Shown here piece after piece: positions 22,926-23,527 of a stretch of DNA of 64,000 nt. Source of the stretch: Nitrosotalea devaniterrae (GTDB taxonomy: Archaea; Thermoproteota; Nitrososphaeria; Nitrososphaerales; Nitrosopumilaceae); the NCBI GenBank assembly GCA_900065925.1, contig LN890280.1, positions 1,418,451 to 1,482,450 on the forward strand, written 5' to 3'. Each line of letters begins with the position of its first letter. Positions within the stretch are counted from its first letter, which is position 1. The notes under the pieces are model-generated. The model saw only the letters and a list, made by a program, of their open reading frames with translations, ran no database searches and was not told the origin of the DNA. The translations under genes and the position numbers were made by a program.

Positions 22926-23007
22926 TCCAGGTAATCATTGTACAGGATATCAGGTCATTAAAAAAGAATGTGTGCAGTTATAATTCCAGGAACATAGTTA
23001 ATCGAGT

Positions 23008-23016
23008 CTTTTATAC
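23008..23016 (+). promoter_or_regulatory. TATA box of the candidate hairpin RNA
   Basis: CTTTTATAC, a good archaeal TATA box, centred 25 bases before the G at 23037 where the candidate RNA would begin. No protein frame starts behind it. Confidence 0.5.
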
Positions 23017-23036
23017 GATAAAGTCCAATTATCTAT

Positions 23037-23112
23037 GGAACCGTGGATGTGTCTTCCTAGTGTACGATCACACCATCACTATGACACAAGTCCCTAATAT
23101 CCACGGTTTCAT
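23037..23112 (+). ncRNA. Candidate structured small RNA of about 75 bases
   Basis: In a gap of 353 bases without a gene, AACCGTGGAT (23039-23048) pairs perfectly with ATCCACGGTT (23099-23108). Inside it, GTGTC (23049-23053) pairs with GACAC (23083-23087) and GTGT/ACAC closes an apical loop (about 23060-23073). The outer stem starts almost at the transcription start predicted from the TATA box, and a T-rich run (TTTCATTTTA) follows. No known RNA family recognised: not a tRNA, 5S or C/D box RNA. An operator made of two distant half-sites is the alternative. Confidence 0.45.
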
Positions 23113-23237
23113 TTTACAATAAAAAATCTACCAGGTTTTGCATACCCAGGACAGATTTGCCAGTTCAAAATGAACGAACACATTCTTTTCAATCTAGATA
23201 TCATAGTAAATATTGCAGATTCTATACTGGCGGAATG

Positions 23238-23258
23238 TTCTTTGGGGTAAAACCCAAA
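23238..23258. other. Hairpin CTTTGGG/CCCAAAG in the same gap
   Basis: A perfect 7-base stem with a short A-rich loop, in the non-coding stretch between the hairpin RNA and the convergent membrane-protein gene. On the plus strand a long T-run (TTATTTTTTTATTTTA) follows about 20 bases later, so it may belong to a transcript end. Confidence 0.3.
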
Positions 23259-23278
23259 GGGCGACCGCTAGAATCTGA

Positions 23279-23527
23279 TTATTTTTTTATTTTATTTACC
23301 AGTGATTGGACCAGGTGTCCTTTGAACAGAAAATCAGAAATCTTGTATGCAGACACTGCAAGAGCTATGAATAGTCCACCTGTAGGAAGGACTAGAAGCG
23401 TATTCTCTAAAACTAGGATAGATTTAACCGAGGCATAGCCTGAAAACATTACAAAGACTAGCAAGGCAAACCCCATTGCCTCAAGGGCAATCGTTCTATG
23501 AGATAATATAGTGGGATTTATTGTCAA
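23279..23527 (-). CDS. Small two-helix membrane protein
   Basis: An 82-residue protein with two membrane helices (AMGFALLVFVMFSGYASV and LVLPTGGLFIALAVSAYKI) and a basic end (NKIKK) placing both termini in the cytoplasm. Composition and codon use are like real membrane proteins of this genome; the overlapping plus-strand frame lacks such features. Function unknown. Confidence 0.6.
   Translation of the reverse strand: MTINPTILSHRTIALEAMGFALLVFVMFSGYASVKSILVLENTLLVLPTGGLFIALAVSAYKISDFLFKGHLVQSLVNKIKK

Follow-up and report, generated by a model that had tools for sequence, protein, structure and literature searches.

The genome of Nitrosotalea devaniterrae contains a short inverted repeat behind a TATA box, an arrangement that could mark either the gene of a structured RNA or a DNA site bound by a protein. 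We asked which of these the locus, here called A1, represents and how its product might act. Our analysis started from a 64,000-nucleotide stretch (the window) of this genome, which is a single contig of 1,805,304 bases, and extended to related genomes.

Promoter and hairpin of A1

An earlier note on this DNA had described a strong TATA box followed by a segment whose ends pair over ten bases. We confirmed the box as TTTTATA (Table 1), and the core arms, AACCGTGGAT (23039-23048) and ATCCACGGTT (23099-23108), pair perfectly, with pairing extending outward to 23035-23048/23099-23112 (13 of 14 positions paired). The second 5-bp stem and small apical stem that the note had drawn are both predicted in the RNA fold, where a UGU/ACA-type stem closes the apical ACGAUC loop. 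The predicted free energy is -27.7 kcal/mol, where shuffled sequences average -14.9 (z -4.4; none of 200 shuffles as good), and the reverse strand folds too (z -3.2). Across the 64-kb window, six perfect 10-bp inverted repeats were found against 7.9 expected, and one with at least five G+C per arm against 0.4 expected. Since a single repeat of this length is at chance level, the fold alone is insufficient and the case depends on comparison; what raises A1 above chance is that promoter and hairpin are conserved jointly from genome to genome. The tail after the hairpin is T-rich in most A1 orthologues and not in the copies of a second form, A2, described below.

Table 1. Features of the A1 locus and of the neighbouring RNA B, in window coordinates
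Feature	Position	Strand	Basis
Upstream promoter element of A, ACATAGTTAATCGAGTC (BRE-like plus upstream box)	22991..23008	+	conserved; 76-91% identity, TATA region included, in 13 orthologues
TATA box, TTTTATA	23009..23015	+	sequence; found in all A1 orthologues
RNA A1	23035..23112	+	predicted 13-pair outer stem, 5-bp inner stem GUGUC/GACAC, apical ACGAUC loop, 3' bulge AAGUCCCUAAU
A/T-rich tail, possible termination region (weak, no clear U-tract)	23113..23130	+	sequence
Promoter-like motif of RNA B, AACGAACACATTCTTTTCAAT	23171..23193	+	recurs among B copies from different genomes and loci
RNA B, predicted separate structured RNA with U-tract end	23213..23291	+	fold z -5.8; model R2; covariation

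Conservation and genomic context

At the DNA level, close A1 orthologues were recovered from 14 of the 37 genomes of the genus that were searched, the source genome included. Compared to the window, the 13 orthologues are 89-97% identical in the RNA part and 76-91% in the promoter part, while DNA upstream of the block falls to 50-59%, close to what shuffled sequence gives, as does DNA downstream except where RNA B comes next. Promoter, spacing and hairpin are thus kept as one block amid flanks that cannot be aligned, in agreement with the note's proposal of a free-standing RNA gene with its own promoter. A covariance model of family A (R1), run against 250 genomes of the taxonomic family, found it in 15 genomes, all of the single genus, and gave nothing in the 213 other genomes of that family. 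All genuine homologues that carry names come from Nitrosotalea or Thaumarchaeota assemblies. One match from Rhodobacteraceae (L083) was set aside as chance since it sits within apparent coding sequence (aldehyde-dehydrogenase-like by eye) and has nothing else in common with A. Given this conservation, we take the hairpin to be, very probably, a genuine small RNA gene that about fifteen acid-soil ammonia-oxidising archaea retain together with its own promoter.

The upstream element of A1 has no second site in its own genome at up to three mismatches, and the box is thus unique there rather than the mark of a shared regulon. A similar box (AACAATGTTAAGCGAGTCTTTTAT) occurs in two other genomes, G002 (L182, 2496-2519) and, at the matching place, G033 (L183), where the gene that follows is conserved and encodes a small membrane protein. 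A1 adjoins the gene for ribosomal protein eS30 in genomes of the genus, wherever the contig was read far enough. The small flanking ORFs had no Pfam match, and neither A nor B was found in viral contigs.

Substitutions in the stem

The earlier note had named arms that change without compensating pairs as the sign of a DNA operator. We tallied the ten core stem positions in 29 distinct members of A (all forms) and found 267 Watson-Crick cells, 23 G-U cells and no C-A cells. The G-U cells arise from changes at four positions: A became G at three of them, all in the 5' arm, and C became U at the fourth, in the 3' arm. It is these four positions rather than the 23 cells that count as independent evidence, since the cells include related sequences. 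A bias towards G-U with no C-A is unexpected for a DNA palindrome or for an RNA from the opposite strand, and is as would be expected of an RNA made from the + strand. The changes therefore keep pairing on the + strand only, the reverse of what the note had associated with an operator.

In the stem alignment of A, 96.5% of cells are paired, and its covariation score was reached by none of 500 shuffles. Two-sided changes are confined to one outer and one apical pair, and counts of such pairs are not above those in shuffles; with nine of the 13 outer pairs invariant, the formal covariation signal is modest. This invariance suggests that the sequence of the stem is recognized as well as its shape.

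Other forms of A

The earlier note did not include the paralogues of A1 or the adjacent RNA B. The second form, A2, is found in several genomes in the interval between pgk and a divergent gene, and in two (G033 and G028) it has decayed. A1 and A2 have in common the stem, GUGUC/GACAC, UGUACGAUCACA and CCCUAA, and differ in their promoters, that of A2 reading GTTTATC...ATGATAATCAT upstream of TTTTTTAT. The separate promoters of the copies suggest that their expression may be regulated. In the seven A2-carrying genomes scanned, near-perfect matches (0-1 mismatch) to a palindrome-like element that precedes A2, GTTTATCnnnAnATGATAATCAT (L062-L070), occur only at A2, which makes a dedicated regulator possible. 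We considered a Fur box, as the upstream element of A2 contains ATGATAATCAT, and dropped the idea because the N. devaniterrae genome, itself without A2, has no FUR domain and the near-perfect site is not common to other genes. The third form, A', keeps the outer stem only; a copy of RNA B follows it about 200 bases downstream.

The neighbouring RNA B

RNA B starts 100 bases downstream of A1. Model R2 found it in 15 of 250 genomes; one of the 14 other than the source genome belongs to another genus, and there the match is marginal. The source genome has three copies, with the other two at 955437-955516 (+) and 653165-653247 (-) of its contig (G000:C1), and close relatives have two to three clear loci per genome. 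Its stems covary strongly, with ten pairs showing two-sided changes, a count reached by none of 500 shuffles. Because the alignment had been fitted to the structure, this count is biased, but a plain alignment also contains a U-A to C-G change in the basal stem. By these comparisons, RNA B is a predicted multi-copy structured RNA, so far undescribed, with its own promoter motif.

At the A'/B locus (L107, about 1300-1580; also L100, L108, L109, L113, L114 and L102), conservation covers the full stretch of about 270 bases, and the alignment of upstream DNA ends sharply at A'. A third small hairpin, of the GTGTGTTTGGTTCAAACATAC type, lies between A' and B, and its arms seem to covary. The A' loop (L107) and B also have TGCAGATT..CTCTACA in common (GCAGAUU..CUCUACA in RNA), which means that A' could compete with the 5' arm of B for pairing with B's 3' arm (GAATCTG).

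Comparison with known RNA classes

The earlier note had recognized no known family in A1, and an Rfam search (4227 families) bears this out: at the gathering threshold, the window gave two tRNAs only and no match for A1, and a permissive search of the A1 locus gave chance-level matches only. ARAGORN placed two tRNA genes in the window, neither at A1, and A1 has no tRNA or tmRNA cloverleaf. H/ACA guide RNAs are, like A1, hairpins with an internal unpaired stretch, but the bulge of A1 is one-sided (0 x 11 nt), with no two-sided pseudouridylation pocket, and it lacks a conserved ACA box, the TTTACA of the window not being conserved in orthologues. C/D box guides are of similar length, but the + strand of the A1 sequences holds no C box (RUGAUGA) and no D box (CUGA) other than one CUGA within a stem in L020.

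Closer parallels are the archaeal intergenic trans-acting sRNAs (such as Haloferax s479, PMC8155600; review, PMC5867862). Both they and A1 are free-standing intergenic genes with their own promoter (in A1, conserved along with the RNA), a compact stem-loop and no conserved reading frame. A1 differs in being restricted to one genus, in its nearly invariant stem and in occurring in several copies with distinct promoters; no sequence relation between the two is known. We therefore consider A, as judged from its sequences, best filed as a candidate new family within this known kind. Our search of the literature found no described small or regulatory RNA of ammonia-oxidising archaea. The relevant passage of the Nitrosotalea devanaterra genome paper counts seven small RNA genes without naming them there, and A1 may be among them (PMC4836417).

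Function and alternative explanations

We consider it probable that A1 stands on its own as a gene, with a TATA promoter that drives + strand transcription of an untranslated RNA about 75-85 nt long. This RNA would act in trans and is probably bound by protein. Most likely, a protein would bind the nearly invariant stem (CCACGGUUUC arm) together with the conserved apical ACGAUC loop, and the resulting small RNP would present this loop, the CCCUAA bulge or both to a target, with separate promoters switching on separate copies of A. Protein binding is favoured by the invariance of the double-stranded stem. Other archaea have sRNAs that act by base pairing, and A1 could instead be an antisense regulator whose ACGAUC loop or CCCUAA bulge pairs with mRNAs, both segments being highly conserved. 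This we consider possible but rather unlikely: antisense pairing alone does not account for a double-stranded stem conserved to the same degree as the loops, and long or near-perfect complements of the two exposed segments in the source genome, the gene itself aside, are no more common than for reversed-pattern controls. The null complement search makes antisense action through short seeds less likely but conceivable; for a trans-acting A1 RNA, the protein-bound form appears more likely.

Readings without a trans-acting RNA fit the data less well. Near-invariant arms would suit a protein site, and the two 10-bp arms might thus be an operator or recombination site bound as DNA. We find this improbable, since core asymmetries always give G-U in the + transcript and never C-A, conservation extends to parts of the loop while the distance between arms differs among members by more than ten bases, the TATA spacing is maintained in A1, and there is no viral association. 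The earlier note's statement that there is no reading frame needs amending, as a 20-codon frame (ATG 23035 to TAA 23097) begins at the predicted start site; what stands is that no frame is conserved. Leaderless genes are common in archaea, and an ATG, GTG or TTG lies about 25 bases past the TATA box in all A1 members, as if A1 were a leaderless mRNA encoding a micro-peptide (MEPWMCLPSVRSHHHYDTSP) or leader peptide with its start codon at the predicted transcription start. However, the TG of this codon is accounted for by its position in the stem, A2 copies have TAG in its place, and one-base indels break the frame in seven of the 12 distinct A1 sequences. The frameshifts exclude a conserved peptide, and a coding role is very unlikely. 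Least likely of all is a role in cis, as the leader or attenuator of an adjacent gene. Such a role might be imagined from A2, since most genomes with A2 have it on the pgk strand, upstream of that gene. In G019, A2 is about 1.4 kb from pgk with another gene in between and so is not a pgk leader, the source genome carries pgk with no A2 at that locus, and A1 is convergent with eS30 in the window and hence not its leader.

Implications

It is conceivable, although we think it unlikely, that A and B work together in acidophilic ammonia oxidisers as components of a single RNA system specific to this lineage. If so, the A1/B pair, the A'/B pairs and the sequence common to A' and B would reflect a direct RNA-RNA interaction or a shared partner protein. 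With A and B, an acidophile that is in culture and has its genome sequenced gains two putative new families of conserved RNA, whose genes can be tested directly by northern blot.
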